From the IMG/VR virus record IMGVR_UViG_3300030328_004747, positions 1-33,052 of that record: DNA of 33,052 nt; one strand, 5' to 3'. The position numbers were made by a program, and so were the translations under genes. Within the stretch, counting starts at the first letter, position 1, and the number at the start of each line of letters is the position of its first letter. Origin of the DNA: a virus. Under the pieces are notes generated by a model. The model was not told the DNA's origin, did not search any database, and was given only the letters and a program-made list of their open reading frames with translations. Positions 410 to 31,700 of this stretch are shown in pieces.

Positions 410-2707
410 TTATTGGTTATCTTTATTTTCCAAATTATTTTTAATTGACTGTAACATATTGCCTGCTTGCTGGTTTTGAGATTGTACATTATTTGCCATC
501 ATATTACGCAATACTTCTTGCTTTCCAGATGTCTGATTCAGCTCATCTTTCAATCCAGACTTAACCTCTTCTTTCTTTTTATTTATCTCAACTGCAGCTT
601 GCATTACTTTGCCTTTAATTCCAGCTTGAACTAACTGTCTTTGCAATGTTTCAATAGTACCGTCTTTATCTTTCATAGCTTCTGATAATTGCTGTACTTG
701 ACCTTGCAACTGAGCATATAAAGATTTTCTTTGTGCAATATTATCTTTATTTTTAATATCAGTTTCTGCTAATACAGCAATATCATCTACTACTCCAAGT
801 TGCATTAATTGTTTCAATTCCTCTAAATATGCCCATCTATTTACTGGAAGTGTAGATCCTTTTACAACTCGTATATCAAATTTCAAACTAGATATATCCA
901 TTGACTTTCCAATAGCCTGACCCATATCATTATAGATTGGAATATTAATTTCTTTTTCAGAAGCTTCTTGCAATGCACTTGGCTGTATAATTCTAAATCT
1001 TTTATTTGCAGTGTATGTAGACTGGCAGAATTGCAACATTACTTTTCCTAATTGCTTTAAAGAAGGTTCTATACAAGTGCTCATCCACTGCTTAATTCTT
1101 CGTGTTCCATATTCATCTAACGCCAACATACCTCTATATGTTTCAGATGCTCCACCAGAATCTCCCATCATAGAAGAATATATTCCTGCTAAATACTCCA
1201 TATCAGTTTTACTTTCTTGAACTATAGTATAAAAAGCATTTGATAGTGGAGCTGGTTGAACAGGAGTAGGAGGAGTAATTCCTGGTCTTACTGATAATAA
1301 GGCACCTGGAGATGACGCATATTTTTCCCAAGTCTCTGTATCAATACTACCTTCTTCATACATCCATCTTAAACTACTACCTAATGACGCATTGTGAACC
1401 ATAATCTGATGAGATTTATTTATCTCCTGTTGCTTTCCAATCAATGGAGCTACAGCACTCATAGAATATGGAGTCCCTGTCCATTTAAAATGGAAGGGGA
1501 TAATAGGATACTCAGTTACTGTATCAGGAAGAATTTGTTCATAAAGAAGTTTATCTCCTGCAACACAACACTGCTTTATTCTATTGTTAAAAAATTGAAC
1601 CTGATCTACTATATTCTTAGAGACCATTGGATCTTTCATTAACAGTTTAAATTCTTTTTCGGTTACTACTTGATTCTCTATTATAGAGGCTTCAGCTTGT
1701 AGCTTGCTCATACATTCTTGAGCGAAAGATTGTAATTGATTGGCCATCATTTCTTGAGCTTTTTTCATTTCAAGCTCAAATCTTTCAGGTAACATTTCAC
1801 CTGACTGAACTGCTTGTTGCATTTGCTGTTGCTGTTCTAGCAAATTAACTTGCATTTCCTGCTCTTGCTCTTTTACCATTATATCACATTGTTCTTTTAA
1901 TTCTTTTAATCGAGCTTCATCAGGAGGAACTCTATAGAAAACATTTACATAAGATATTTTAATTTTTTCATATATTTCAAAAAATTCAATCAACTCATCA
2001 TTTTCACCAGAAGCTAATACACCTTTTACAGTATCAACATCATCATTAAAAGCAAAGAGTTTATGATCATCTTGACCTAAAGGTCTAGTTGTATAAGTAG
2101 TTTGAAATTGTTCATCACTAGATGCTTGGGAAATTTTTCTTTTAAACTTTGGGAATATTTTAGCTAAGTGACCTTTTGGTAAAACTTTTCGTATCATAAT
2201 AAAAGCAGCATCACTAAATAACATATCTCTGGATTTAGGATCAACATATACATCAAAAGGCTCAGGTTGTTGAACTATCACTTCACCCATTCCATTGTCT
2301 GCATCTTTATCAACAGATATTAACATGTATCCGATACTTTTTGTTACTGCATCATTAATAGCATTAGTATATAGAGAAGAACCATTTGAATTATTCCAAA
2401 CATAATCAGCTAAATCAGAAAATACTGCAGCAACATCTGTGTCAGAACCTTCTACACCTACCGCTTGCCATCTTGGATCGTTATCAGTAGCATAGAAATT
2501 TAGCATTTCAACAACAGGAAGGATTCTATTTATAGTAAAGGTAGGCATTCCTTGGTCTTCAAGATTTGTTTTTTCTACCTCAGTAAGCTGTTCATCATGA
2601 GCAAATTCATATCCTTTTTGATTTACCTTTTGCCACTGCTTTCGTGTCCAGCTATTTGCTAGATGATATAGTTGCCTTACTTGATCTGCTTTCTTTTGTT
2701 TAGCCAT
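410..2707 (-). CDS. Portal protein, P22-type
   Basis: At 765 residues it has the length of P22-like portals, which form the dodecameric ring at one capsid vertex through which DNA is packed and ejected. The N-terminal third carries the family pattern: a helical start, then PTFTINRILPVVEMLNFYAT around residues 54-73 and a following segment with DPRWQAVGVEGSD. PEPFDVYVDP near residue 150 also fits. A Gln/Glu-rich coiled-coil stretch lies around residues 270-340. Another helical Gln-rich region ends the protein, as expected of a barrel-like C-terminus. The ATG at 2707 has a GAGGAAATT ribosome site. It sits between the lysis genes and the scaffold-like gene, as expected for a head module. Confidence 0.85.
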   Translation of the reverse strand: MAKQKKADQVRQLYHLANSWTRKQWQKVNQKGYEFAHDEQLTEVEKTNLEDQGMPTFTINRILPVVEMLNFYATDNDPRWQAVGVEGSDTDVAAVFSDLADYVWNNSNGSSLYTNAINDAVTKSIGYMLISVDKDADNGMGEVIVQQPEPFDVYVDPKSRDMLFSDAAFIMIRKVLPKGHLAKIFPKFKRKISQASSDEQFQTTYTTRPLGQDDHKLFAFNDDVDTVKGVLASGENDELIEFFEIYEKIKISYVNVFYRVPPDEARLKELKEQCDIMVKEQEQEMQVNLLEQQQQMQQAVQSGEMLPERFELEMKKAQEMMANQLQSFAQECMSKLQAEASIIENQVVTEKEFKLLMKDPMVSKNIVDQVQFFNNRIKQCCVAGDKLLYEQILPDTVTEYPIIPFHFKWTGTPYSMSAVAPLIGKQQEINKSHQIMVHNASLGSSLRWMYEEGSIDTETWEKYASSPGALLSVRPGITPPTPVQPAPLSNAFYTIVQESKTDMEYLAGIYSSMMGDSGGASETYRGMLALDEYGTRRIKQWMSTCIEPSLKQLGKVMLQFCQSTYTANKRFRIIQPSALQEASEKEINIPIYNDMGQAIGKSMDISSLKFDIRVVKGSTLPVNRWAYLEELKQLMQLGVVDDIAVLAETDIKNKDNIAQRKSLYAQLQGQVQQLSEAMKDKDGTIETLQRQLVQAGIKGKVMQAAVEINKKKEEVKSGLKDELNQTSGKQEVLRNMMANNVQSQNQQAGNMLQSIKNNLENKDNQ

Positions 2708-2729
2708 AATTTCCTCGATTTAATCCTTT

Positions 2730-2924
2730 CTAATTTATTATGAAACGTGTAATGATTGCAATACATACTATCACTGCAATTGATATTAATAGAATGCGTA
2801 ATATGAAAATGCTCAACTTCACAATATTTAGGGCAATAATAGGATAAGCTCTTTGCAGTAAAGATCGTATCGATCCCTGCACAGTTTGTAACTGCCTTAA
2901 ATAATTGAGGAGTGTGTCTTTCAT
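2730..2924 (-). CDS. Small membrane protein, holin candidate
   Basis: This 64-residue protein has a polar, amphipathic N-terminal half with several Arg and Gln. A strongly hydrophobic segment follows, from about residue 28 to the C-terminus, rich in Ile, Leu and Val and broken only by a few charged residues. One or two membrane passes are possible. Holins are small membrane proteins that let endolysin reach the wall at the end of infection, and this gene lies directly after the peptidase endolysin. No strong Shine-Dalgarno site precedes the ATG, so the start is less certain and expression may be low. An accessory lysis protein or an unrelated membrane peptide cannot be excluded. Confidence 0.55.
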   Translation of the reverse strand: MKDTLLNYLRQLQTVQGSIRSLLQRAYPIIALNIVKLSIFILRILLISIAVIVCIAIITRFIIN

Positions 2925-2968
2925 TATACGAGCCTATTATAAATAAAATTATTATCAGCCATATTTCT

Positions 2969-3361
2969 TTAATCTCTTACCTCAAAATGCGGAAAGTCAT
3001 CAAAGCGATTGTCCATCACTTCGAAGTCTTGGTCCCAGTCTCCGCCCCACCGAAGATTAATACCCATCCCACGAGCCAACCCAAGCACGAACCCAGCAAA
3101 AAGAGTTTGTCTTTCACGGTCATCCCAGTTAACGGGGTAAGGTGTAACATCAACAGCACGGCTAGGCTTACTATTATGCCTACCATTAGGGAACTTGACT
3201 TTTGTCTTTCCTTCTTCAAATAGTTTGTTTTGCCTTTCTTCACTTCTGTGTCCTTCTAATACAGAGCAGTCTACATATTTAATAACCTCATTAAATACTT
3301 TCTGTATTCTTTCATCACATGTTGCTAGTCTTTTTTTACTTGTCTTTCCAAATCTTGGCAT
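2969..3361 (-). CDS. M15-family peptidase endolysin (L-Ala-D-Glu or D-Ala-D-Ala type)
   Basis: The 130-residue protein matches the M15 zinc peptidases used by many phages to cut peptidoglycan cross-bridges. Visible landmarks are EGHRSEERQ near residue 37, the zinc-site region GRHNSKPSRAVDV with H62 and D71, RWGGDWD near 104-110 with a candidate catalytic acid at D108, and the third zinc ligand H125 in FPHFEVR at the C-terminus. The size equals a single catalytic domain with no added wall-binding domain and no signal peptide, so release should need a holin; a holin-like gene follows. The ATG at 3361 has a good AGGAGAAGAG site and lies inside the small preceding ORF. Confidence 0.87.
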   Translation of the reverse strand: MPRFGKTSKKRLATCDERIQKVFNEVIKYVDCSVLEGHRSEERQNKLFEEGKTKVKFPNGRHNSKPSRAVDVTPYPVNWDDRERQTLFAGFVLGLARGMGINLRWGGDWDQDFEVMDNRFDDFPHFEVRD

Positions 3362-3456
3362 CTCTTCTCCTGTTTTTTAAATTTAAATATTTTATCAAAT
3401 TTTTGAGCATAATCCTTAGACCATTTCACTCTATATGTATCACCTTTACCATTCAT
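3325..3456 (-). CDS. Small basic protein, 43 residues, unknown
   Basis: A 43-codon frame begins at an ATG that overlaps the TGA stop of the large terminase gene as ATGA, a usual sign of translational coupling. It runs 37 nt into the peptidase gene in another frame. The product is very rich in Lys, with a few aromatic residues (YRVKWSKDYAQKFDKIFKFKK) and no membrane segment or Cys pair. I do not recognise it. The coupling and the lack of any other use for this gap argue that it is translated; it could instead be a leader that couples terminase translation to that of the peptidase. Confidence 0.5.
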   Translation of the reverse strand: MNGKGDTYRVKWSKDYAQKFDKIFKFKKQEKRCQDLERQVKKD

Positions 3457-5006
3457 GCTGTTATCCAACTCTTTGCCTTACGCTTCTTTTTATACCAACC
3501 ATCTTTAGAATCACTTAATCCTTGAGGTGGATGTGCATATTTACAGGCGTATGCTAATGCATCTATAGTATCATCATGTGCCATACGAGGGCCAAAAGTC
3601 ATTATCTCTCTATGTAGATCGTATTGAGTTTTCTTTATATGAACTTGACCTACTGCAAATCTTTGTGCTAATATTTCCTGTATTCTATCCCTCTTGCTCA
3701 TTCTGTTTCCAGGCTTCTCTTCTTTGAAAGGTATTATAAATTCATTCCTACGTCTCATCTCTGCTCTAATAGCTTGGAAGATTGGTTTTGACATAGAGGT
3801 ATCTTCTATTGTAAATAATGTAGGATTATAAAATTTAGCATAGTCAAACAAATGATCAACAATTCCTTTTTTATCTACCCCAGGTATTCCTAATACAGGA
3901 AGAGTTCTATTTCTGATATAATCTAAAACATAGATATTATTATTTGGAGTGACCGCAACAACAAGTATGACGCTAAAGTCACTATTCCTACGAGCAGAAT
4001 CAGTAGCAGGATCAACACCGATAAATATATTGCACGGCTGCGGATCTTCTCCATCTGGGACAATATATGATACTGAACTTTCTTGATCCTTAACAAACTG
4101 TCCATCCCAATAATTGATATGATCCCTATTAAATATAGAATCTTCTTCACTTTGAACCTCCATCATATATTCTTGATAAAACTTCTGAGGTGTTCCATTG
4201 TCTTGGTAGAACTTTTTCTTACGCTCCATTTCCTTTTTACCAAACCAATCTGGCCATAATGGAGTTCCATCATCTAATAAAGCCTTATATGTTATTACAT
4301 CCCAAGAAAATTTTTGCTTTTCTTTCTTTGATTGCTCATATCCCGTTAAAATCTTTTGTATGAATGCGTCAAAATGTACAGGCGTACCATTAATTCTTAG
4401 CCTTCCTGTCTTTGGTTCGAGTGCAGGGAAGACAACAGCAGTAACAAGGTTGGAGATTTTAGAACGACTCTCTGGCGTAATCGTATTATTCTCATCTTCA
4501 AAATCATCAAGAACAATAAGATCATACCGCTTATGCAACTTGGCACCACCACGAATACCAGAAAGATTAGACTTAGAAATAAGTTTAGTCCCATTCTTGA
4601 GTTCAATATCATCTTCTGTCCACTTCCTTCCTTTTAAATCACCAAAGTAATATTTTATCTTCTCATTATATTCTATATGATATTTTATATAATCTAGATT
4701 CGGTACACTAATTTTAGAGCTTGCAGCGACCCAGCCATAAAAGAGAGGTTCTTGTGTGAATACGAAGTCGTGTAGGATATTGCACTTTGTCAATACAGTT
4801 TTGCCATGGCCACGAGGAAGAATCACTGCAAGCTGTCTAATGCTTAAATCTGATAAAGCATCTGCTACTTCATAATGAAAAAATGGAGTTTCAGATCGTT
4901 TGAAATCATCTTGTAAAAATAATTTACCAAAAGCAATTAAATCTTTATGAGCTAATCTTAACTCATCTTCTGCTTTAGATACATTTTGGGTGTTTATATT
5001 AGCCAA
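3453..5006 (-). CDS. terL: Terminase large subunit
   Basis: This 517-residue ATPase-nuclease powers DNA packaging and cuts the concatemer. The ATPase half shows Walker A ILPRGHGKT at about residues 62-70 and Walker B YDLIVLDDFEDE at 161-172. The RNase H-like nuclease half shows IFIGVDPATD with D332, TIEDTS with E401, and MAHDDTIDALAYA with D478/D479, which together form the usual metal-binding acidic set. The start is TTG at 5006 with GAGG five to nine bases upstream; no ATG is better placed. The stop overlaps the next ATG. It lies downstream of the small subunit and two tiny basic ORFs, and upstream of the lysis genes. Confidence 0.95.
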   Translation of the reverse strand: MANINTQNVSKAEDELRLAHKDLIAFGKLFLQDDFKRSETPFFHYEVADALSDLSIRQLAVILPRGHGKTVLTKCNILHDFVFTQEPLFYGWVAASSKISVPNLDYIKYHIEYNEKIKYYFGDLKGRKWTEDDIELKNGTKLISKSNLSGIRGGAKLHKRYDLIVLDDFEDENNTITPESRSKISNLVTAVVFPALEPKTGRLRINGTPVHFDAFIQKILTGYEQSKKEKQKFSWDVITYKALLDDGTPLWPDWFGKKEMERKKKFYQDNGTPQKFYQEYMMEVQSEEDSIFNRDHINYWDGQFVKDQESSVSYIVPDGEDPQPCNIFIGVDPATDSARRNSDFSVILVVAVTPNNNIYVLDYIRNRTLPVLGIPGVDKKGIVDHLFDYAKFYNPTLFTIEDTSMSKPIFQAIRAEMRRRNEFIIPFKEEKPGNRMSKRDRIQEILAQRFAVGQVHIKKTQYDLHREIMTFGPRMAHDDTIDALAYACKYAHPPQGLSDSKDGWYKKKRKAKSWITA

Positions 5007-7888: not shown

Positions 7889-7960
7889 AGCGGAGAGGAC
7901 AATTGGTAAGTCGCTTGGCTCATAACCAAGAGATAGTAGGTTCGATTCCTACCTCCGCAA
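7889..7960 (+). tRNA. tRNA with CAT anticodon (Met, initiator Met or lysidine Ile)
   Basis: The full cloverleaf is visible. The acceptor stem is GCGGAG with CTCCGC, the D arm GAC/GTC holds a TTGGTA loop, and the anticodon stem CTTGG/CCAAG holds loop CTCATAA. A five-base variable loop follows, and the T stem GTAGG/CCTAC holds TTCGATT. CCA is not encoded. Counting 72 bases leaves A1 opposite A72, an unpaired first position that resembles initiator tRNA. However, the anticodon stem lacks the three G-C pairs of initiators. Elongator Met or tRNA-Ile(CAU) is therefore equally possible. It directly follows the large candidate RNA. Confidence 0.92.
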
Positions 7961-8007
7961 CAAGATTTGTTTAAACAGTATTTAATTAAAGCACAAAGGA
8001 GGATTGT

Positions 8008-12681: not shown

Positions 12682-12737
12682 ATTTGGTTAGTCCAATTAT
12701 GGAAGTATATTTTGTCTTCAAAATAGAGAGGATATAT

Positions 12738-13553
12738 ATGAATGTATTATTATTTGATTTAGAGAATGGAAGTAAAACTTTAGGTAATAAAGAATTTATT
12801 AAAGATAGATTTAATTTACCAGTTTTAGCTCCTTCTACATTCAATCAATTCCAATTAGTATTAGGTCAATTATATCAACAAGAAACAGTTCAAGTTGTTG
12901 AGAAGATTGGAGGATTGGAAATTAGCGATGAACAACGAGTATTAAAACTTAAAGATCCAAAACTTAAAGTAGATGCAGTTGTAATAGATACTGTATCTGA
13001 ACTATCTAAGAAATATCAAAGAAGTTTGGTAGATAAGAGTGGTGTTATGCAATTACAATCTTGGGGAAAATTGAAAAATAAGCTAGATAAAATGCTAGAA
13101 TATGTAACGAGTCTCCCTGGAGTAGTAATTTGTAATTGTCATAGCAAGATTCAAACTATGGATGATGGTAGTACTAAAATATTACCATATATAGATGGAT
13201 CTACTAAAGAAGATATATCTAAATGGTTTGATTTTGTTCTATATACTAAGACTGTTAATTATCCAGACGGGACCAATAAATATGTATGGCAAACATCACA
13301 TACTACTATGTATGACCATGCTAAGGATAGGACTCAGTTATTAAAACCTGAGATAGAACAAAATTATCAAAGTATAATAGAAGTTGCAAAGAAGAAAGGA
13401 TTCGATGGTGCTAAGATATTAGTTATTGGAAGTCCTGGCACAGGTAAAACTTACTCTTTGAGAACACTAGCAAATTTTCAGGAAGAGCCTGAAAAAAAAG
13501 TAGAAACTCCTAAAGTAGCCGCTAATGGAGTTGCTCAAGAAACCTCAGTTTAA
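12738..13553 (+). CDS. RecA/Sak4-like ATPase with circularly permuted motif order
   Basis: The start is set at ATG 12738 with GAGAGG upstream, giving 271 residues. The protein has the usual parts of phage Sak4-like ATPases (AAA_24 group), which act in recombination-dependent replication, but in a different order. Residues 1-11, LLFDLENG, look like the strand and acidic motif that normally follow Walker A. Walker B, VDAVVIDTVSEL, has D84. ICNCHSK has H135. DHAKDRTQLL comes near 206-215, like the usual C-terminal part. Only then, at 231-238, comes Walker A GSPGTGKT, in KILVIGSPGTGKTYSLRTL, normally at the N-terminus. A disordered 20-residue tail ends it. Its neighbour is an ssDNA-binding protein, the usual Sak4 partner. 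The reading frame is uninterrupted. Confidence 0.82.
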   Translation: MNVLLFDLENGSKTLGNKEFIKDRFNLPVLAPSTFNQFQLVLGQLYQQETVQVVEKIGGLEISDEQRVLKLKDPKLKVDAVVIDTVSELSKKYQRSLVDKSGVMQLQSWGKLKNKLDKMLEYVTSLPGVVICNCHSKIQTMDDGSTKILPYIDGSTKEDISKWFDFVLYTKTVNYPDGTNKYVWQTSHTTMYDHAKDRTQLLKPEIEQNYQSIIEVAKKKGFDGAKILVIGSPGTGKTYSLRTLANFQEEPEKKVETPKVAANGVAQETSV

Positions 13554-13572: not shown

Positions 13573-14130
13573 ATGGCTATTAGAACAACATCCGCCTCAG
13601 GTGGAGGTGGACAATACAATGCTGGATGGCATACTTTAATCATATCTAAAGCTGAATACGGAAGCTGGAAGGGTCCAAAAGGTGATAAAAGGTACTTAGA
13701 TATATGGTTCAAAGACTATCCAGATAATATGAATCTAAGAGTATATGAAGCATTTAGTAATGATGAAGAATTCAAAATTGCTAATATCTTTAAATACGCT
13801 AATGCAGGTATTATAGATGTACTTGAAGATTCAACTGGTAAGAAGAGAATCCAATTTGACGATGAAGCTAATGGCTTGATTGGAAAAACTGTTAATGTAT
13901 TCTTCTATAAAGAAACAAAAACAGGTAATGGATATTCTAGAGTGTTTGATTCTATAGCTCCAATTGAACAAGAAGGTGAAAAGCTTTCTTATTCAGCTGA
14001 TGCTGTAGAGTCAATAAAGAAAAGTGTTGCTGCCAATTGCGAGAAGCGTAATGCTCCTCAAGATGATGGTGACGATTTCTTCTCAAATCCAGAAACTGAA
14101 ACTACTAAAACAGAGACCGCTGGTTTCTAA
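13573..14130 (+). CDS. Probable single-stranded DNA-binding protein (OB fold)
   Basis: This 185-residue protein follows the ATPase by 19 bases, with TTAGGAGG upstream of its ATG. A Gly-rich start leads into alternating strands (GWHTLIISKAEYGSWKGPKG, KRYLDIWFKDYP and LIGKTVNVFFYKETKTGNGYSR), the pattern of phage OB-fold proteins of the DUF669/DUF2815 kind. The C-terminus is an acidic disordered tail with DDGDDFFSNPE, as in SSB proteins, where it recruits partners. It probably coats ssDNA and loads the ATPase or annealing partners. A terminator follows. Confidence 0.72.
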   Translation: MAIRTTSASGGGGQYNAGWHTLIISKAEYGSWKGPKGDKRYLDIWFKDYPDNMNLRVYEAFSNDEEFKIANIFKYANAGIIDVLEDSTGKKRIQFDDEANGLIGKTVNVFFYKETKTGNGYSRVFDSIAPIEQEGEKLSYSADAVESIKKSVAANCEKRNAPQDDGDDFFSNPETETTKTETAGF

Positions 14131-14211: not shown

Positions 14212-14469
14212 ATGAAAGTAACTGTAAAAGAGCATTTAATGAGATTCTTAGATTATTATTATTCAAATAAGAGAATATTCAAAACCCATGAAATACAAAA
14301 TTTATCAGAACGAGGATTAAGTAAATTTGGAAAAAGATTAGGATCCCCTGAAACATATACTAGACAATTTAGAACACTAAAAGAAAATGGTGATTATCTT
14401 GTTAGAAAAGTTCCAGGAAAAGGAAATGAACAGTCTTGGATTGTAATAGGGAGGCTGAAAAATGTTTAA
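14212..14469 (+). CDS. 85-residue winged-helix-like protein
   Basis: TTGGAGG precedes ATG 14212. The 85-residue product shows HLMRFLDYYYSNKRIFKTHEI, then RLGSPETYTRQFRTLKENG, and ends with a strand pair containing VRKVPGKGNEQSWIVIG. This order is that of a small winged helix, with the second helix as recognition helix. It overlaps the primase-helicase gene by 8 bases, so the two are probably coupled, and it could help in origin or DNA binding. The fold is inferred by eye. Confidence 0.65.
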   Translation: MKVTVKEHLMRFLDYYYSNKRIFKTHEIQNLSERGLSKFGKRLGSPETYTRQFRTLKENGDYLVRKVPGKGNEQSWIVIGRLKNV

Positions 14470-16195
14470 AGAATATGCATTTGGAGTTTCAAATAGACAT
14501 CATATAGGTGATACCTCAGATGTAGAAAAATATGCTGGAATGGCTGAAGATACTTTCATGTCCTTATGGGATTATGATAATTATGTAATTGATTATATAA
14601 AGAAAAAAGAAAGTATATCTAGTTATGATGGTATGCTATATATGCCTGATGAATTCATTCTTGATGTTGATGGTGAAAACTCTCAAAAAGCAAAAGATAA
14701 AACAATAGGTCTAACTATAATGCTAGATGATTTGTTAATTCCATTTAGATTATACTTCTCTGGAACAGGATTTCATGTAGGAATTCCTGGAGAAGCATTT
14801 AGATGGAAGCCAGCTCCTGATTTGCATTTAAGAGTTAAAGATGAATTGAAATCTCATGGTATTTATGAATATGCTGATATATCTGTTTCTGATAAAACAC
14901 GATTAATCAGGATTGTAAATACTAGAAATAGTAAATCTGGACTATGGAAAATACCTATTACAAGAAGTGAATTAAATAAACCTATAGCAGAGATTCAAGC
15001 ATTAGCTAAAAATAAAAGAAATACATTTGAATGGACTGCATTAGAATGTGAGCCTGTATTTGATGCATTAAAGAGAAAAACTATAGCTAGTGATAAGACA
15101 TTTGAAAAGGTTACATTGGGATATAATCCAGACCCAGGATGGTACACTTGCATTCAAAAAATGTTAGGTGGTAGTCCCCAAGGTTCTAGGCATCAAATAG
15201 CATTAGTAATTGCAGCTCACTTTAGATGGAGATTTCCAGAACATGTAGTTCGATTGGTTATGGAAGATTGGAGGCAAAGAGTTGATCTGCCTTCACATCC
15301 ATTTACTAAAGCAGAGATGGATAGAGTTGTAACTGATTGCTATGAAGGACATGGAGGTAAAGGATATAATTATGGATGCACAAGTGAACATATGGATGCT
15401 AATTGCAGTAGCACATGTAGGCTTTATAAAAGTAAGAAATCTAATGGAATAATGGATGCTGCAAGTATGGAAAAAGAACTTGTTGATTTCTTAAGTAGGG
15501 ATCATAATCCTATAAACATAGGAGAATTATATGGTCAAAACTATCCTGTATATCCAGGTGAAACTGTAATCCTACAAGCTCCGCCTAAATCTATGAAAAC
15601 AATGTTATTGCAAAATTGGGTTAATTCATTTAAACGACCAACATATTTTCTTGAAATGGAGATGAGTCCTAGACAGATGTGGTCTAGATTTGTTCAAATT
15701 GAGAAAGGTTGGGATGAAGAGGAATTGAAAACTCATTACAAGCAATATGCTAATGGTGTTAGTCAAAGCTTTGGATGGCTGACAATGGATTATAATAGCT
15801 GTTATGTTCAAGAGCTAGACAAACGATTACAAATGTTACCACATAAGCCTGAAATAGTTGTTATCGATCATATGGGATTATTTAAATCTCAAAAGAGTGA
15901 TAATAATATGAAGGTTGAAGAAGTATCTCAATCAATCATGGAACTTGCAATAAGAAACAATGTAGTAGTATTTGCTGTTTCAGAAATAACAAAGCAAGCT
16001 TATCATGAAGGTATGGATATTACATCAGCAAAAGGTTCATTTCGTATTGGATATAACGCTAATAAAGTGCTCTCTTTAACTCCATATTTCTCAGATGAAA
16101 GATTGGTTAAAGCATTAAAGATAGAATCCACAGCTAACAGAGAAAAAGAAACCTTAAATGTAGAACTTAATATTGATGGAGTGAGAATAGTATGA
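14462..16195 (+). CDS. AEP primase fused to DnaB/RecA-like helicase
   Basis: A 577-residue replication protein. The N-terminal domain is an archaeo-eukaryotic primase: EFILDVDGE with metal acids D68 and D70, SGTGFHVGIP with S100 and H105, and TRLIRIVNTRNSKSG. A Cys/His cluster, C306, H310, C315 and C319, likely binds zinc between the domains. The C-terminal RecA fold has APPKSMKT at 373-380 in place of a normal Walker A: both Gly positions are changed (A373, M378), but K379 and T380 remain. Walker B is EIVVIDHMGLF with D469, and SEITKQA follows. It would prime and unwind DNA at the phage fork. The next gene overlaps its stop. Confidence 0.85.
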   Translation: MFKEYAFGVSNRHHIGDTSDVEKYAGMAEDTFMSLWDYDNYVIDYIKKKESISSYDGMLYMPDEFILDVDGENSQKAKDKTIGLTIMLDDLLIPFRLYFSGTGFHVGIPGEAFRWKPAPDLHLRVKDELKSHGIYEYADISVSDKTRLIRIVNTRNSKSGLWKIPITRSELNKPIAEIQALAKNKRNTFEWTALECEPVFDALKRKTIASDKTFEKVTLGYNPDPGWYTCIQKMLGGSPQGSRHQIALVIAAHFRWRFPEHVVRLVMEDWRQRVDLPSHPFTKAEMDRVVTDCYEGHGGKGYNYGCTSEHMDANCSSTCRLYKSKKSNGIMDAASMEKELVDFLSRDHNPINIGELYGQNYPVYPGETVILQAPPKSMKTMLLQNWVNSFKRPTYFLEMEMSPRQMWSRFVQIEKGWDEEELKTHYKQYANGVSQSFGWLTMDYNSCYVQELDKRLQMLPHKPEIVVIDHMGLFKSQKSDNNMKVEEVSQSIMELAIRNNVVVFAVSEITKQAYHEGMDITSAKGSFRIGYNANKVLSLTPYFSDERLVKALKIESTANREKETLNVELNIDGVRIV

Positions 16196-19965: not shown

Positions 19966-22776
19966 CTATTGCAAATCTCTTATAGCCTCTAATGAAGCTA
20001 ATGCTTTCTCTGCATCAAATTTAGAAATACCTTTACGTCTATTTTCTGTTGAAGGAACTTTCTCTGGATCAAATCCTGCAGCTCTCAATGCAATATTTCT
20101 CATTCTAGTTTCAGGTGTAAGGTTTTTAACTTTTGGTTCTCTAGCCCAACCCCAAATTCTATCATTCCATTCATTTGTCCATTTCGTAGGATAAGTCTTA
20201 AACATACTCACAGCTAAATCATCAACACCTCTACCATCTCTAATTACAGGCCAAAATTTATTTACAGTACCCCCTCCAAATGTTCCAAAATATTGATAGT
20301 TTTTTAAATACTCAGTCTTTGGATCTTCATAATCAACATCACCCCATAATACCTTACCTATGGTACTTTCAGGCATATCTAATACCCCTAACACTTGCAT
20401 TCCGAATACTGTTTTATTTACAGCAGGACCTGTAAAGTTAGAAATAATTCCAAAGAATGCTTTTTTAGACTCTTCATCATCTTTTAGAACAGAATCATAT
20501 AAATCAACGGTTAGAGACTTTAATCTATTAGCTAAATCAAAATCGATTATACCACCCAAATTTGTATTAAAAGCCGCTTCTGTAAGCGCAACCAGTCCAA
20601 ACACTTTTGCATATCTAGCCCAAAACATCTGTGCATCAGGACTTAATCCTTTAATAGACATTTCTACACCTGTTCTTTCAGCCATTCTATGATGAGTTTG
20701 AACTAATGACATAGGATAGTGAAGTAAAGAAAAGGCTACTTCAGATGCACCTCCCTTTAAATCTCCAATCAATTTATTATTACCTATAATAACCTTATTA
20801 CCAATTTCATCAAACTTAACTTCACCACCTCTTAAAGCTCTAGATTTGGAATGAGCTGCATATTCATAAGCATAAAGATTTACTTCATTTAAAGCAAAAT
20901 TCTTAGCAAAATTTCTTGCTGTTGTTTCATCTGGAACATATGATTTTTGTTTTTTTCCATTAACTTCAGCAACAACTTCTTTAAAATAAGATGGATTAGT
21001 TATCAATTCATTATACTTTGATGCAAATGAATAGTCAAACATATTTTTACGAATAAAATTTTCACCCATTCTATGAAACACTAACATTCCTTCAATAGGT
21101 TTCTTTATAAACCATTTATCTAAAAATTCTTTAGCATCTCCACCTTTATAAGTAATCTTTCCACTCATAGGATCGTAATCCCATTCCTTTAGATTTGCAT
21201 CATTCTTACTCTTTATTAATCCTTCAGTAACCAAATCCTTTGCTACATCAGGATATAAGTAACCTTGTTCTTCTGAAACTTTCTGCAATGCTTCTTTAAC
21301 TTTAGGGTCAGTTGATAATAAATCTCTAGTAGCAAGCATTTTGGTTCTTCCCATATTGAACATGTAATAAGCAGCACCTGATATATTCTTTACAGCCCCT
21401 CCAATATTTAGACCCATTGTTGATACGGTCATCAGAGCATTTATTCTTTTTACAGTATTATTAACCCAAGGAGCTCTATCTGACGTACCTCTATTCATTA
21501 CATGATGCTGTTCATGTATCCATCTAGCCATTCCTTTTAGCCATGGAGTTGAAAGATTGGGAATGTCTTGCAAAGCCTCTAAATAAGCTTTAGTAGATTT
21601 TACATGCTTATTGAATTGAAGAGCTTCTCTAGAATATTGCTCCATCATAAATATAGGATCTTCATTGTTAACATTTCTTAATAGTTCATTTTTACCTCTA
21701 ACATGATCAGGAAGCATTCCTAAATTTATACCAAGAAGACTTTGAGTTAAAACAGATGTATTGTCTTTTAGTTCGCTATTATATTTATGATCCAAAGCTT
21801 TTTCCATCATACTTCTTATACTAATAACAGTTTCAAAAGACTTTCTAGGTAAGTATCCACCACGCTTTATACTGTTTTCTAAGCTCTCTATAACATCTGT
21901 AACTCTATTTTTAAAGTTAACATATTCTCTTGAGTTTAAGCTTAAATTTCCAGATTTCCATTTTAACTCCATTAAAGGAATTAATCCTTTTAAACCATCA
22001 ACAAAAACTCTACCATTATTACTTAAATACTCTCTTGCTTTTGACACTGCCTTCAACGTACTTAAAGGAACGTTAATATATTTATCAGGAGATGTGCTAT
22101 CAACCTCCTTATACCTCTTAAATGAATATGCATTCTTAAAATCTTCATTTGTAAGTTTAGCTAATGCTTGAAAATCTCTCATAATCTTACCATCTTCACT
22201 ATTAACCAACTTGGTAAGTTCCTGCATATATTTAATCTTATCAGCTTCAGATGCAGTTTTGTATATATTTTGCTGAATTTTTCTAAGATCATTTAAAAAC
22301 TTTATACCTACAGTTTTATAATATAGTCCCGATTTATTAAACGCATCTCTTAAATGAGTAGTCACTTCATTCATCACTTTTATATTTTTAGCATCTGCAT
22401 TACGCTGATACCCCAGAATATCATTAAATGTAGTAAAAAACTTCCATCCCGTAGGATCTCTTTGTGCAATACCTTCTCCAACAAACCATCCTGCAGAGCT
22501 AAATTCCCCAGTCAACCTATTATTAAATTTGTCAGCCCATTTTTCCAGTGCCTGCCATTGCTCCTTACTTAAAGTCATATGCTCATGATAAGGTAACTCT
22601 AATTTATCTTGAACAAATGTTTTTATATTTCTTCTTACAGAATCATAGTTATAGTCAAATCTTTTAGCTATATTTTTCCACTTACCACCTGTAGCCCAGT
22701 TTGATTCAAATTCTCTCATCTTACTCTTATGAAAATCTCTTTCTATATCTTCTGGTTGGCATATTGGGGAACCCAT
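19966..22776 (-). CDS. Large internal virion protein, probably ejected
   Basis: This 936-residue protein lies directly downstream of the giant gene, sharing one base in TAATG, with AAAGGAGG upstream. It begins with a possible helix-turn-helix (WKNIAKRFDYNYDSVRRNI) and is otherwise mostly helical. The central stretch IHEQHHVMNRGTSDR and following INALMTVSTMGLNIGGAVKNIS resemble helical domains found at the ends of large polyvalent phage proteins. Mild hydrophobic segments, such as FWARYAKVFGLVALTEAAF, could contact the membrane. No active-site motif is obvious. An ejection or virion core role is inferred from size, position and composition. Confidence 0.6.
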   Translation of the reverse strand: MGSPICQPEDIERDFHKSKMREFESNWATGGKWKNIAKRFDYNYDSVRRNIKTFVQDKLELPYHEHMTLSKEQWQALEKWADKFNNRLTGEFSSAGWFVGEGIAQRDPTGWKFFTTFNDILGYQRNADAKNIKVMNEVTTHLRDAFNKSGLYYKTVGIKFLNDLRKIQQNIYKTASEADKIKYMQELTKLVNSEDGKIMRDFQALAKLTNEDFKNAYSFKRYKEVDSTSPDKYINVPLSTLKAVSKAREYLSNNGRVFVDGLKGLIPLMELKWKSGNLSLNSREYVNFKNRVTDVIESLENSIKRGGYLPRKSFETVISIRSMMEKALDHKYNSELKDNTSVLTQSLLGINLGMLPDHVRGKNELLRNVNNEDPIFMMEQYSREALQFNKHVKSTKAYLEALQDIPNLSTPWLKGMARWIHEQHHVMNRGTSDRAPWVNNTVKRINALMTVSTMGLNIGGAVKNISGAAYYMFNMGRTKMLATRDLLSTDPKVKEALQKVSEEQGYLYPDVAKDLVTEGLIKSKNDANLKEWDYDPMSGKITYKGGDAKEFLDKWFIKKPIEGMLVFHRMGENFIRKNMFDYSFASKYNELITNPSYFKEVVAEVNGKKQKSYVPDETTARNFAKNFALNEVNLYAYEYAAHSKSRALRGGEVKFDEIGNKVIIGNNKLIGDLKGGASEVAFSLLHYPMSLVQTHHRMAERTGVEMSIKGLSPDAQMFWARYAKVFGLVALTEAAFNTNLGGIIDFDLANRLKSLTVDLYDSVLKDDEESKKAFFGIISNFTGPAVNKTVFGMQVLGVLDMPESTIGKVLWGDVDYEDPKTEYLKNYQYFGTFGGGTVNKFWPVIRDGRGVDDLAVSMFKTYPTKWTNEWNDRIWGWAREPKVKNLTPETRMRNIALRAAGFDPEKVPSTENRRKGISKFDAEKALASLEAIRDLQ

Positions 22777-25700
22777 TATTCACATCCTCCTTTTGGTTTT
22801 ACTTCTCTTTGGATCAATCGCTGCTCTTGGTCCATAGTAGTTTCTTTCTTTATTACATCTTCGTAAGACTTTCTATACTTCTTCATTGCTTCCTTGAAAA
22901 ATATACTTTTATGAGCCATACCAGATAAACTTCTTATAAAATCAGGAGCCTCTGAAAGTCCTTTAAAGTCATAACCTCTTTTCATACCAAGGTAATTTAA
23001 TTGCCTATCCTTAAAATCTTCCTTATGATCCCCTCTAACTCTTGCCTCCCATTCCTTTATTACATTTTCAACTATTTTCTCTTTCCCGTTATTTCTCATC
23101 CACTCGAAGACTTTATTTGTTATTCTTTTCTTTACTTTATAGTAAGGCAAATCTATCTTTTCATTTCTTTTTATACCACCAATTTGAACATATTTACCCA
23201 TTAAAGGTTCAGGTTTAATTAAAGAATACATTAGGAATTCAGATATCTCTACATCCGAGTAGTTAGTATACTTTTCTAAAATAGGTTCATACTTTTTGAA
23301 ATATGAATCTATTATAGACATTTCTTGCTTTCCAGTTAAAACCCAACTTTTTTGAGATGTAGGCTTCATTCCTTTAACATTCCTCATTGTACTTGAGAAT
23401 ATATTTGAGAAATGCTTTTGAATGTCAATCCCATCTCTTCTGAAAAGATTTGCATCTGCTTCTGAGAATACATCTTCAGGTAATCTAATTCTAGACATAT
23501 TATTTAGTATGTGACCATATTTAGCATCTCTTTCGCTTACAGTTTCTCTAATTATAGGATTCTTTATCTCTATATAGGTATGACCTCTTAAAGACTCGTA
23601 TATTTGACCTTTATCAACAAATCCTACTTTATTAAATTCAGATAAAGTCATATCTCCCTTCTCAAGAAGCTCTTTCAATTTAGCCTCCGTACCTTTATAA
23701 TAAAGAACAAAAGAATTATCTGAAACTCTTTCAAACCCTCTATTATTAAAGCCACCTCCAATTTTAAATTTAGCATAACCTTTGTTTGCTAAAAAGCCTT
23801 GAGAATATTGAACTTCTAATACATGTAAAGCATCTTCAGTTCTTTTTATTTTTTCATTCAAAGATTCAAGTTTATTTTTAGCATATTCATTATTGAATTT
23901 TGATAAATGCCTTTTACTTCTATTTAAACTTTCAATAATACCATGCAATCCTTGTCTGATAGCACCTCTTCCTATAGTACCTGGAAGATCATTTTTCATT
24001 TCTTTTTTGAACTTAGTAAAGTCTACACCTTTATTAAACGAAAATTCTTGAGCAATCTGATTTATCTTATCTCCCCTATTAACCAATATAGCAACTCTAT
24101 CTATAGCATCGCTTATAGTTGAACCTAGCATTGTATTTAATTTCCTAACTCTATTTGCACTAAAATTACCACCATCAGTATAGGACAAATGATCACCCTC
24201 TTTAAAAACTTCTCTAGTAACTACTTCCCTAAGAAGCCTTCCTTGAGGACTTGCATCAAACATTTGCTTCCAATCTTTGCTAGGGTTTGGAAAGTTCTCC
24301 CATGAAAGTCTATTCTCAGTTTTAAAGTTCATAGGAGTATACCCTGATTTTAAAGATTTAATAAATTCTCCATATTTATCTTGAGGGCTTTGCCATTTAG
24401 GGGTATCTTTATAAAAATAATTTATCATATCAATTAATTTTTGTTCAGAATCAGGACCTTTTTTTCTAGTATATCTTTTAGCTAACTCACTTACTACATA
24501 TCTAGTAGGGTTTTTAAATAAATTCATATTATTATAATAAGCACTTGTTAACTCTATAGCTTCTGGAGCTCTTGTTACTCCATCTTCATAGACATCAGAA
24601 CCCATTATATTTAGCTCTTTAGTTGTTCTCAATATTATATCAGCTATATCTTGCTCTAACAATCCATCCTTTTTGTTTGGATTCCCAAAACCTTCTTTCC
24701 ACATTGGCTTATCAATCCAAGTTGGGACTTCTTTATTATGCTTAAATCGAACCCTATTATCTCCTATCATTGTTTCTGGAGATGTTTCGCCAAAACCTAT
24801 ATTTCTTTTCAATATCTCTGGCTTCATAATAGAACTTGTTCCACCATGTATATCTACTGCATTTTGAAATAAAACAAGCATCTTCTGAAGATTGTCCATT
24901 CTATCTAAATGCCTATCTAAATTCACGTCTTTTTTAAACTTTCCAGATTTATAGTCGATTAAATCACTACTTGATAAATTATTTAGGAGATTATCATAAG
25001 TCTTCCCGTCTTGCCTTGCTTTTCTTAACCCTAAATTAGAAAGTACAGAGTAAGCACTTCTATCTCCTATTATAGCTATATTTCTACTTAAATTGTCTAA
25101 ATTATCTAAATATTTGCTTGGACCTACTTCAGGTGTATATCCTGCAAAAGACTTAGGATCTGATGGATTGATTCCAAATATATTTATAGGAAAGGGATCT
25201 TTTTCTAACATAAAGAAATCTTGCATAAATGATTGCTTGTGAGCATTCATAACATTCATTTCAAAAGGAAGCTGATAATATAAATAAAACTTATCACCAT
25301 CATTATCTCTCTGATGCATTACTCTCTCATCATAATGATTTATCTTAACCAAACCTTTTAGCTCATGATAATCTTTAATTCTATGAAATCCTTTATCATA
25401 TCCTTTTAAAGGTATAGCAATATTACTACTTCCTATAGCGATATTATTATCTTGAACAATTTTTAAAACCTTTTTACTTAATCTTTTCCATGAAAGACCA
25501 ACCTTAACTCTTCTTCCATTTAAAAGATCAATCATTTCTTTCATAGTTAAATTATTGTCAATTCTATTTATATCCTTTAATACAGGCTCTATAGCTTTAT
25601 ATGCATCTTTGCTAACCCCTTTATAGAATTCTTTATCTGCAAGTACATCTAAATCTTTATCCTTATATCTATCTTTAATTCCTTCTTCTATAACTAGTCT

Positions 25701-28700
25701 ATTTCTTCTTCCTTTAAAATCCTTTTGAAATACATTAGGTCTCAATGCTTCTCTTAGTGGAGATATAGCAGTTCTTTTAGAATAATTAGCTAAATAATCG
25801 GTACCATTAAAGTTTATAACAAAAGTAGTATTTTCAAGTCCTACATGTTTTTTTACTTGACGACCATCAGCAGCAATTCTTTCATGTAAACTATATCCAT
25901 CTGGACTAATTTCCCCAAATCTCTTTGTAGTTCTCCAGGTTATAGGGTCGTTAGGGTCTCCAGATGAATTTAATTCAACTCTAAGACCACTCTTTAATTC
26001 ACTTTTAATATCTGGAATGATAGTCATATCAGCTCCATTAGGAGTAGCCTGCCTATTCAATTCTTTAAAGTATTCATTTTTTATAGCTCTATTTGCAGCA
26101 TTCCTTATTATAGGACTCTTATAATCAACCCCCATTGTTATTAAAGCATCTAACTGAGAAAGCTCACCCTGTGTCTGAGTAAATCCCTGGTTTTCTTTTG
26201 ATTGCTTTATATAGTCTAACATCTTGGGAGCAGATTCAAATAATCTTGTAGTATTTATATCAATAGATTTTAATAGACTCTCCATATTAGATACTTGTGC
26301 ACCCATCATATCTTTTGCATATTCCATAGATTCAAAATCTGCTTTTGACCTACTAACAACAACACCATCTCCTCTCTTAGAAGAAAATCCTAATCCATAA
26401 TCTTCTATATTTAGCTTTATTGTGTTGTTTTGCAATATATCTGCAAGCTCTTTACCTTGATAGGTTCCTAATTTATCATACCATTTTTTCGTAGGTATTC
26501 TTAATGGAGTTACATTTATACCCATTTCTTTTGCAGCAGTTTCACCCATAACCATATCAATACCTTGAGGCATTTTTACAGCAGGATCATGAGCATTATA
26601 TCCTTTACCTAGCAACCCATTTTCACCTAGCTTATAGTCAATAGTTTTATAACCACCTAAGTCGCTATAATCTTTACCATTTACATATAAGTCATATTTA
26701 GTTTTCTCTCTACTGCTATATTTTATTCCATCTGTTATAGCATTATCTAAAGAAGGAATTTCACCTCTCTCTACCTTTCCTAACTCTCTTGATAATGCAC
26801 TTATTTCTAAAGCATGAGATCCATCTTTATCTGCTTTTTCTGCAGCATTTAATCTAGATTTCAGCCTATCTATTTCAATTCTTTTTATAGAAGTGCCTGC
26901 ACCTACATACTCATCTGCAACAATAGTTACATTTATATCTCCCTTATTAGCTTCTAATCTTTTAGCATAATTTTGTATATCTACATCAGGAGCATTCTTT
27001 GCAATATCTTTATTTACTATCCTGCTTGGAGATAAAGTTGTTCCTCCATCAATAAGATTACTCCTTTTTACCATATTCATTTCAATCAATTCTCTTCCAA
27101 TATTATCTCCAGCTACTCTTGATGCAAGCCATTTATTAAAGGCACCTCTTTTTCCTTCAGCTGCAAATATAAATTGAAGCTTTAAAGCACCTTCGCTTGG
27201 ACTTACAACTACTTTAGATAATAAAGGCTCAAATACATCATTAAATGCTATTTCTAATCGATCACCAGGTATAGTAATAATTTCTCCATTTGAATGCTTA
27301 TACTTTATTGTCTCAAAACCTCTATCTAATACCTTCTTAACAAGACGCCCATAAGCATCAGAAAGCTTCATGTATGAATCCTTACCACCTTTAAATATTA
27401 ATCTTGTGCCTGCTGTAGGCCTTGCATAAAATCCAGTCCTTAAAGACCATAATCCAGTCTTAATTTCTCTTTCTAAAGTCTTTTTATACTTAGATGGATC
27501 TACATTTCTTCCATCTGCAAAATCTATAAAGAGTTTACTTTCAGACTCAGGAATTACAACTCCAGACTCCTTAGCGTTAGCCAGCATATCATTGACCTTT
27601 CTTTCACTACTAAGACCTTCTGATGATTTCTCTATATTTAAATCTCGAATATTTTTAGTTTCAAGATTTTTTGTTAAAGGATTAACCATATCCATGGTAG
27701 CATCAATATATACAACCTCTTCATGTAAACCATACTTCTTTAAAATCTTCTTAGGAGGGGTTAGCTTAGATACTTCAGCATCATTCATTACAAGATTTAA
27801 TTTTCCACCATCATGTATAAATCTTCCTCTTTTAACTCTAGTTCTATTTGATAGCACTGTTAGTACGTTATGCTTTACCTTGTTCCAATCTGATTTTAAT
27901 TTTGTTATTTCAGCATCAGGCAGTCCTTTAGTTCCTAATAATTCAAATACTTTTTTATTAAACTTATCAACAATATTAGCCTGCTTGCTTTTTATACTAA
28001 AATCACCCATTATATTTAATATATCAGGATGAAACTCATTAGGGTTTTTTGGATCGTTAAATCCATATCTTTTAGCTATAGTAAGTGGAGTGTCTGAGGA
28101 TTGTTGAACTTTTTTATCATTAGCTAGATTTATATAATTATCTGCCTCTGCTCTATTTACCTCAGCTACCTTATTCATGGTTAGCATTTGAGTTATTTGC
28201 TCATTTAGCATTCTAGTTACTTCTTTCAAGCTTGTCCATGACTTTGTTTTGTCAAATGTCATAATCAATTCATCTAAAGATTTACTTTTGCCTAGAGAAA
28301 GGTCTCCTAATATTCTACTAAGTTCAGCAGCTGCTCTATCTTGCCATACACTTACACCTTCTGGGCTTAAATTCTTAGATTTTATACCTATAACTATATC
28401 GCTAACAACCTCATTAAAATCTTGTCTTATTTGATTCTCTTGAACTATAAGCTTATCCATAACTTCTTGCATACTTATAATATTTTTATCAATTTTTTTC
28501 TGAAGCTCAACTGGCTTATTTATTTCCTGACCAACAGGATCTGATATTTTCTGTAAGTTATTTAAAGTTTTTTCTCCCTTAGCTATAAAACTATCATAAT
28601 CTTTTAACTCTGGAGCTTTAGGGTTTTCAGTATATATAGCATCTCTCAAACCTCTAATGTCAGTTAATATATTATTTATTCTAGTTGGAACTTCTGAATT

Positions 28701-31700
28701 ATAAAGATTATCACCTATAAATTCTAATCCCTGATTTATATCTGAAAATGTCTGTTCATACCCACCTTTTTCTTTCAACACTTGACTTCTTATGTCTGCA
28801 TTTCTAATAAATTCTGCAACCTCATTCAATTTAAAGTTTTTAGTTATTTCGCTTATATCTGTAACATTTGGCGTTTTATATGTAGGGTCTGTTGACTCTA
28901 AATAAGTCTCTCTCATCAATTGAATTCTATCAGGTCCAATAGCATCATATATCTTTTGATATTCCATTTTTAAAGTTGCTATATCATTCTCAGTCATAGC
29001 AGGATTCTCTTCTCGTCTAGCCATTCTATCTATACTGTCCATATCAGGAGCATGTATCTTTCCATCTCTTATATTCCATAATCCCTTTTCTTGGCCCTCT
29101 ATCACACTATTTACAACTCTAGGGTTTATATCCCCTACTGATGTAATATCTCTCAATATAGGCTTAAAATCACCTTTTAAAAGAGGTTCTCTTAATGTAG
29201 GAGGTAGTATAGAAATTAAATCAGTAAAGCGATCTGCGATCTGTTTTGCATCTTTAACATCTATTTTACGACTACTGCTATAAGGGTCACCACTAATTCT
29301 TCCATTGTTATGGATTTTAAGTAACTGCAAAACAGGTCCTAATTGAGCATCTAATTCAGCCCTAGTAAATTCAGGCTCTTTTTTCATTTGCTCTACAGAA
29401 ACTCCTCTTTGTTTTGCTATCGCAGTCCAATCATAATCATAGTTTTCAATTTTAGGCAAAAATCCTTTCTCTCCACTAGTACTTCTATTAAAAACCTTAA
29501 CAGCATCATTATGAAGCTGTCTATCAGATTGTATTTCAGATTTTCCTGATATAGTATTGTAAAATCTAACAGTAGCATCTGCTTGAGAGTATTCTCTAAA
29601 CACTTGCATATGAGGATTATCTGCAGCCCAAAAATCATAAGCCACATCAGCAACACCTGCAGTTTTATTCATATTAGATTGAGTGTTGTTTAGGATTTTC
29701 AAAACATTTTCTGAGGCTTTATCTAAAGACAGCTTACTATCTTTATTATAAGTCATCTTTTTATTTTCAAGGATTGTTATAACGTTATGACTTTCAAGCA
29801 TTTCTAGAGTTTTATTGTAATGATCCAAACCTATAGGAAGCTCTCTTGAACCTTCTGGCTCAACTCTACCAGCTGCAAATTGCTCTTTCTTAGCCTCTCC
29901 TCCAGGTAATCCTTCAACCACTTCTTCTATAGGAAGGCCATTCTCTTTAAACTGCCTCGCAACATTTTTTATAGCTTGTCCAGTTTGACCTAGCATTTCC
30001 TTTACTATTCTTGCTTCAAATTCTTGAGGAGTAATATCCTTTAACTTTTTCCCATCTTTAAACTCTACTGCATTTAATATAGAAACAGCTTCGTCTAATT
30101 GCTTTCCAGACCATCCTCCAGTTCTAAAATTCTTTTCTACGAAAGGAGTACCTTCAGTTACACTTCTCATTTTTTTAATTCTAGTATAAACATTTTGCTT
30201 ATGTATTAGCGAACTATGTCTAGTTTTAAATCCACTTCTACCACCTACAGGATGCATATCATCAATAATAGCTTCTATTTTTTCACCAATCTCTGTAGTT
30301 GCATAATTACCACCTTTTATCTCAGAAACAACATTTTGATTCACATGTAAATATCTTTGAAGCTCTCTATGACTCAATCCAAAAGGCCTTAAAGCTTGCT
30401 GTATCTTTCTTACATCTGCTAAATGAGACTTATATGTTGTTCCATCACCTGGAGCCATCCATGCCTTTCTATCCATACCCCAAGGACCTCTATGTCTTGT
30501 CATAGCAGCGGATAGTACAATATTAGAAGCTAACTCTTGATTTGACATTCCTTCAAAATGACCTTGCTGAAAAGCTTCATAGTTAAAAGCTAATGTCCCT
30601 ATAGTCATTCTAGGTATAGAACCTACAAAATCAGCTATATTTCCTTTTAAAAAGTCCATACTTGTAAAAGCATTTAGTTTGTTTGCAGCTGTATTTCTAT
30701 ATTTCTCTAATAACTCTACTACATCATCTATATGCATATTATCTGCTTCAGATAGAACACTAGTTTTTCCACCATAAGTATTACCTCTTCTAGTCTTCCA
30801 TTTGAATGCTCCCATTAGAGGAGAGTTTTGTATTCCAAAGTATCCACCTCTTGCATGCATTTTCAACAATTCTCTTAAAGTTCCTTCTCCGTTATCATTT
30901 AAGATTTTTTTATAATTTAATTTGCTAAATCTAGCTGCTATTGCTTGATACATTTCTCTACCTGCTCGTCTATGACCACTCCCAAAGAATACATTTGGTA
31001 TCCCTTGAATAACAGGAAACATAAATCCAGCCTTTACACTCTCTCCAAAAGTTTTTTCTAATCCTTTTTGACTCCAATCGAAGGGAGTTCCTCTTGTAAA
31101 AGTATGAACATTCCCTCTTATAATATGATCCGTAAGCATAATTGCAGACATATTTATAGAATTGCCTAAATATCTTCTAATATAACTTCCAACATCCTTT
31201 CCAATCCCATACTTACCACCAACAGTAGAAATAAATTGTTCCAATCCTTGATAACCAATTCCACTAGATATTTTATCTGTTAATTCTTTTGATAAATCAT
31301 TAAGCCATGGACCTCTAGTAGGCATAGGTAGTCCAAATTTACCATAAGCCTTTGCTATACTAGACTTTACATTTCCTTGAACAATCTTAAATGCATCCTC
31401 TGCTATTTCACCCTTTCTACCTAAAGAATATATATCATTTAGATAAGGCTTTGTTCTTACAAAAGGAAATTTAGATTTCCAAGTTTGAGAGTATGGAGCC
31501 CATCTTCTTACATCAGCTTGTATTTGTTCATAAATCTTAGGAGCAACTTTTTTCCTTACTTCATCTAAGGTGAGATTAGGATTAGTTTTTTGTTGAACGT
31601 TATGTATCTTTTTTAACTCTCTATCAATAGTTTTAGTAAACATCTTGCTTTCATTTACACCCATTTTAGATAGATTTTTAACTACTCCTTTAGCTCCATA

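Follow-up and report, generated by a model that had tools for sequence, protein, structure and literature searches.

A Sak4-like recombination ATPase with circularly permuted motif order in a family of metagenomic phages

Motif order of cpSak4 and its conservation

Canonical Sak4-like ATPases carry the Walker A motif N-terminally. A viral DNA stretch of 33,052 nucleotides (IMG/VR record IMGVR_UViG_3300030328_004747, positions 1 to 33,052; here called the window) encodes a Sak4-like protein that carries this motif close to its C-terminus, which raises the question of whether the chain has been circularly permuted, as a sequence-only reading had proposed. The gene, designated cpSak4, occupies positions 12738..13553 of the plus strand (as do all features below unless stated otherwise) and encodes 271 amino acids from an ATG start. 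A Shine-Dalgarno-like sequence, AGAGAGGA, precedes the start codon (12725..12732), and AGGAG-like sites were found ahead of most open reading frames (ORFs) of the family. The N-terminal strand reads MNVLLFDLENG and corresponds to strand 2 (residues 3 to 11; 12744..12770), aligning just past the canonical P-loop segment. Its acidic motif FDLENG (residues 6 to 11) includes the invariant residues D7, E9 and G11, and E9 presumably corresponds to the catalytic Glu of RecA. A β-hairpin insertion follows at residues ~46 to 77 (12873..12968; strands 46 to 57 and 60 to 71 in the structural model), opposite a gap in ten canonical relatives. In an alignment of 45 family members, the stretch from residue 46 to 78 had a length of 30 to 34 residues in every member. 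The same alignment placed the Walker B strand (AVVIDT, with D84) in the middle of the protein (12975..12992), followed by the invariant H135 (13140..13142), which we infer to stand where RecA has its sensor Gln, and by a family signature, DGSTKEDISKWFDFV (13194..13238), most positions of which were invariant. In Sak4-like proteins of canonical order, the AKDR motif (here 13320..13331) is found close to the C-terminal end. In cpSak4, model and alignment indicate that it is followed by a linker of constant length containing a helix (residues 210 to 220; 13332..13409), which joins the old C- and N-terminal parts. Behind it, profile, model and hhalign located a relocated unit of strand 1, Walker A and helix 1 (13410..13475), with the Walker A sequence GSPGTGKT at residues 231 to 238 (13428-13451). 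The C-terminal tail (13476..13550) is variable and modeled with low confidence. These positions agree with the initial description, which had put FDLENG at the start, Walker B (D84) midway and Walker A 33 residues from the C-terminus. That reading had also named a second Walker A in a spliced or frameshifted N-terminal part as a finding that would refute it. Neither the rest of the gene nor any frame of the preceding 300 nt contained one, and there is thus no hidden N-terminal P-loop. The pattern GxPGxGK[ST] arose by chance in only 6 of 200,000 shuffles of the cpSak4 protein.

Scanning IMG/VR with the single protein identified at least 74 metagenomic viral loci that encode cpSak4 relatives; a family-profile search of the same database gave 110 matches, of which the best 80 were kept. 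From the family, 70 ORFs were extracted, and 45 representatives (50 to 71% identity to the window protein) were aligned. Every complete copy among the 70 started with strand 2, mostly from an ATG with an upstream ribosome-binding site, and contained exactly one Walker A, located C-terminally. Homologs with the same motif order, for which the sequence-only reading had suggested a search, are thus present in IMG/VR viral contigs. No copy with canonical order was found in the family (at least 74 loci), and no form lacking the P-loop occurred among complete members. Walker A, the strand-2 acidic residue and Walker B were all present in 45/45 representatives, in which D7, E9, D84, S87, E88, H135, AKDR, G231, P233, G234, G236, K237 and T238 were invariant. 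The spacing from AKDR to Walker A was likewise constant, at 36 residues in all 45, and 7 to 77 residues follow the GKT of Walker A across the family. In three loci whose conserved start position lacks ATG, GTG and TTG (L015:191, L030:903 and L032:2236), an ATT behind AGGAGG may serve as start codon.

Relation to canonical Sak4-like proteins

The family relation was established by profile comparison. By far the best Pfam match of cpSak4 was PF13479 (AAA_24; 76.8 bits, cut-off 27), and PHROG 124 (Sak4-like) was matched by 45/45 members. The match to PHROG 124 was split: residues ~2 to 214 of the native protein covered profile positions 65 to 254, while positions 44 to 65 were matched by the C-terminal Walker A piece. 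Rejoining the ends in silico produced a single match over positions 44 to 254 and raised the score from 94.4 to 116.4 bits (E from 1.9e-26 to 3.8e-33), while rotation at a different cut left the match in two pieces. The same arrangement was observed in viral contigs, where the N-terminal part of the ORF matched PHROG 124 from positions 62 to 67 onward in 21 of 21 cases; the earlier profile part was located behind it in about half of them. An HMM built from ten canonical phage Sak4-like proteins was used for a rotation scan and for hhalign. The scan of the 45 members gave a flat optimum at cuts 210 to 223, with 61 bits against 45 for the native order, and the hhalign and HMMER rotation scans both peaked at cuts 205 to 225. 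Rotating five canonical proteins as controls gained at most 0.7 bits. Aligned natively to the ten canonical proteins by hhalign, family positions 2 to 207 matched columns 45 to 233 and positions 223 to 246 matched columns 22 to 45, with the pieces abutting at column 45; rejoining the family improved the E-value from 5e-16 to 1.9e-22. The two pieces of cpSak4 thus fall on a single canonical domain, in reversed order and directly adjoining. These results bear out the proposal that joining the end to the start restores the normal order, since the rejoined chain gives one continuous match to the Sak4 profile and the canonical controls gain nothing comparable. Profile and hhalign pieces both put the break after the P-loop helix and ahead of the next strand, as proposed. 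The region before Walker A had been taken for the usual Sak4 C-terminus, correctly so for AKDRT..L, which lines up with MAKDRTRCLEP in a canonical relative.

Canonical Sak4 is represented by the proteins of phage 52A (8rc5; PMC11846896) and HK620. Like cpSak4, they consist of a RecA core only, with Walker A and B, and HK620 Sak4 has an ssb-like neighbor; cpSak4 differs in its C-terminal instead of N-terminal Walker A and in the β-hairpin 46 to 77. Sak4-like AAA-ATPase or RecA-like proteins of actinophages (Onyinye gp76 and others; PHROG 124, PF13479) aligned along the rejoined cpSak4 with a VILDSLTEM-type Walker B, LPMLQGK and AKDRT, at an hhalign probability of 99.5%. However, they show canonical order and only ~20% identity to cpSak4, and their genes often stand beside a Cas4-type exonuclease gene. 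As Walker A was C-terminal in all complete members and the canonical order was not met, we classified the family as a permuted offshoot rather than as ordinary Sak4-like proteins. On this evidence, strand 1, Walker A and helix 1 have been relocated as one segment from the N-terminal to the C-terminal end, the short constant-length linker connects what used to be the two ends of the chain, and the new termini fall within the helix 1-strand 2 loop. Of the usual route to a permutation, through tandem duplication followed by trimming, no intermediate was seen. Neither a double Walker A nor a canonical sister in the same neighborhood was found through the family alignment, two divergent members, or searches with the SSB-like and primase-helicase neighbors, which turned up ERF annealases instead. 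No convincing second, canonical Sak4 was present among the 21 contigs.

Gene neighborhood and exchange with ERF annealases

Directly downstream of cpSak4 lies a gene for an OB-fold SSB-like partner (13573..14130), an arrangement observed in 103 of 103 loci checked. Its product was modeled as an OB-type fold (pLDDT 84.3), with PrgE as best PDB match (Z 7.9, including a DNA-bound structure), followed by PriB and SSBs at Z 4 to 5; viral model matches included DUF669 proteins. An acidic tail ending in Phe was found in 68 of 103 SSB-like proteins, many with DDIPF- or DDLPF-like tips. Up to 80% of sak4 genes adjoin an ssb gene, and annealing by HK620 Sak4 depends on ATP and is enhanced by an SSB of the DUF669 type (PMC5928155). 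A further conserved neighbor is a replication protein (14462..16195) in which an archaeo-eukaryotic-type primase is fused to a DnaB-type helicase; its primase half was nearest to primases of Thermus and Moorella phages, at ~24 to 31% identity.

Searches with the SSB and the primase-helicase also recovered sister phages that have the same neighbors and lack cpSak4. Their slot holds an ERF-family annealase (PF04404, E ~1e-24; PHROG Erf-like, E 2.4e-38), and PHROG 124 was matched in 0 of 11 ERF-type sister contigs. Among distinct SSB-bearing loci, 95 carried cpSak4, 74 ERF, none both and 2 neither. On a quick SSB tree, the label changed between cpSak4 and ERF 8 times, at least 6 of which were forced by supported branches, although recombination of the SSB gene itself could inflate this count. 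The exclusive sharing of a slot with ERF and the repeated switches provide good evidence for cpSak4 functioning as a single-strand annealing protein. It nevertheless remains possible, if rather improbable, that the permuted Sak4-like fold serves as an accessory in replication or SSB loading instead of in strand annealing. The primase-helicase among the neighbors and the absence of activity data leave room for such a role, against which stands the replacement of cpSak4 by an annealase beside the same SSB. Taking cpSak4 as the single-strand annealing recombinase of its phage, for which the ERF annealase would substitute in sister phages, the protein would most likely load on phage single-stranded DNA in an ATP-dependent manner and anneal complementary strands together with the SSB of the next gene, as HK620 Sak4 does.

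Several other features of these genomes were recorded. In sister contigs L211-L356 (e.g., L240:2035-2592, or upstream of 3992 in L213), cpSak4 and ERF are swapped at the slot that precedes the SSB gene. In two of them, a third, unrelated gene of unknown function occupies this slot (PHROG 11717, E 1.1e-25; upstream of 1841 in L266 and of 3989 in L267) and may encode another annealase. Some ERF-type sister phages contain, a few hundred bases ahead of the SSB gene, an ORF that by eye resembles ThiF/E1-type adenylyltransferases (L283:2688-3362 and 11 similar loci). Elsewhere in the window, the minus strand carries portal and large terminase genes (410-5006), the best listed cultured terminase matches being N4/G7C-type coliphages at ~25% identity. 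A tRNA-Met (CAT) gene lies at 7889-7961 (plus strand). An ORF of 3,132 codons (22776-32174, minus strand) had no detectable relatives in cultured phages (first 3,000 residues searched) and only a weak PHROG match; its identification as an N4-type virion RNA polymerase found no support.

Predicted fold and implications of the permutation

An AlphaFold2 monomer model computed with the family alignment reached a pLDDT of 88.9 and a pTM of 0.84. Confidence in the C-terminal P-loop strand (226 to 231) was 93 to 97 and dropped only in a short stretch at ~151 to 160 and in the tail past ~250. The closest solved structure was phage 52A Sak4 (8rc5; Z 13.1, 167 residues, rmsd 3.0), consistent with a fold comprising the RecA core only; model residues 1 to 220 aligned to residues 49 to 258 of this Sak4, that is, from behind its P-loop. 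The next matches, RAD51 paralogues and RAD51 (Z ~10 to 11), also began behind the P-loop. A profile search of the PDB by sequence gave only weak P-loop matches. The best viral model match was UniProt A0A516LUR7 (248 amino acids, 46% identity over 245 columns, TM 0.92), very probably another member of the cpSak4 family. The model predicts the usual RecA core, in which the C-terminal P-loop would complete the ATP site with E9, D84 and H135. Foldseek and VIA-align work sequentially, however, so that their superpositions do not extend to the C-terminal P-loop itself. Where it sits in the sheet is inferred from sequence and from the confidence of the model, and protomers might still exchange this segment. 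Within the reach of the tools used, the prediction did not bear out the refuting fold named by the sequence-only reading, in which the P-loop would not pack against Walker B: the P-loop strand is confidently predicted, while its packing beside Walker B within the same chain remains an inference.

Terminal segments can swap, and RecA-type ATP sites lie at protomer interfaces. The C-terminal P-loop could accordingly complete the ATP site of the neighboring protomer in a filament, with the motif order still permuted, and since only a monomer was modeled, we regard this as an outside chance rather than as dismissed. The confidence of the monomer model for strand 226 to 231 and its pTM argue against it, and a fixed path within one chain would suit the constant AKDR-Walker A spacing. 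A still less probable origin is a fusion, in which a Sak4-like protein lost its own P-loop and later gained the P-loop segment of an unrelated ATPase. Taken alone, the 22-residue P-loop piece is short and resembles many P-loop families at similarly weak E-values, so that the Sak4 origin of the moved segment rests on exact abutment and score gain, not on a strong stand-alone match. Nevertheless, the best PHROG matches of the piece were two Sak4-like families, it abuts exactly on the N-terminal match, nothing past helix 1 of Sak4 was brought in, and the P-loop-less form that a fusion would pass through was not seen among complete members. Although the source is a 33 kb virus record and possibly a fragment, an artefact, whether a chimeric contig, a frameshift or an overlooked upstream part, is ruled out by the family-wide conserved order in independent contigs, the single open frame with its own ATG and ribosome site, and the lack of an upstream Walker A.

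We are thus confident, short of certainty, that cpSak4 is a circularly permuted Sak4-like (AAA_24/PHROG 124) ATPase of the RecA/Rad51 type that acts as an ATP-dependent single-stranded DNA-annealing recombinase. ATP binding, ATPase activity and annealing are deduced, without biochemistry, from the conserved residues, the fold and the gene neighborhood. That the permutation is not neutral can be offered only as speculation: with the P-loop helix freed for an exposed variable tail and the formerly N-terminal part held in a rigid linker, the protomer interface or its regulation might differ, perhaps evading host or satellite factors that recognize Sak4 filaments.

Natural permutation of P-loop enzymes is rare. 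As stated in the initial reading, it is known for GTPases. The YRG (YawG/YlqF) family and cpRAS belong to another P-loop class and have break points unlike that of cpSak4, with the orders G4-G5-G1-G2-G3 or G3-G4-G5-G1-G2 (PMC2430557). cpSak4 shares with them the natural permutation of a P-loop NTPase; it does not show their GTPase motifs, having PF13479 as best Pfam match and motifs of the RecA type. A full-text search of the open-licence literature found no description of a permuted RecA, Rad51, Sak4 or similar ATPase. The earlier statement that none was known for Sak4-like recombination ATPases thus held, as far as open papers go, and cpSak4 is apparently the first case of a natural circular permutation reported for the Sak4-like recombinase family, with none found described for the RecA/Rad51 superfamily. 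A tblastn search of 50,697 cultured-phage records returned no relatives at E 1e-5 and, at E up to 10, only weak matches, the best of them to canonical Sak4-like proteins; none were found in ~85,000 bacterial and archaeal genomes either. This serves as a warning that recombinases can escape detection, cpSak4 being probably the main annealase of its phages. The permutation interrupts the strand-P-loop-helix-strand unit, commonly regarded as the ancestral core, yet all catalytic residues are kept across a large and diverse phage family. cpSak4 offers a natural experiment on the chain connections that a RecA-type filament ATPase requires.
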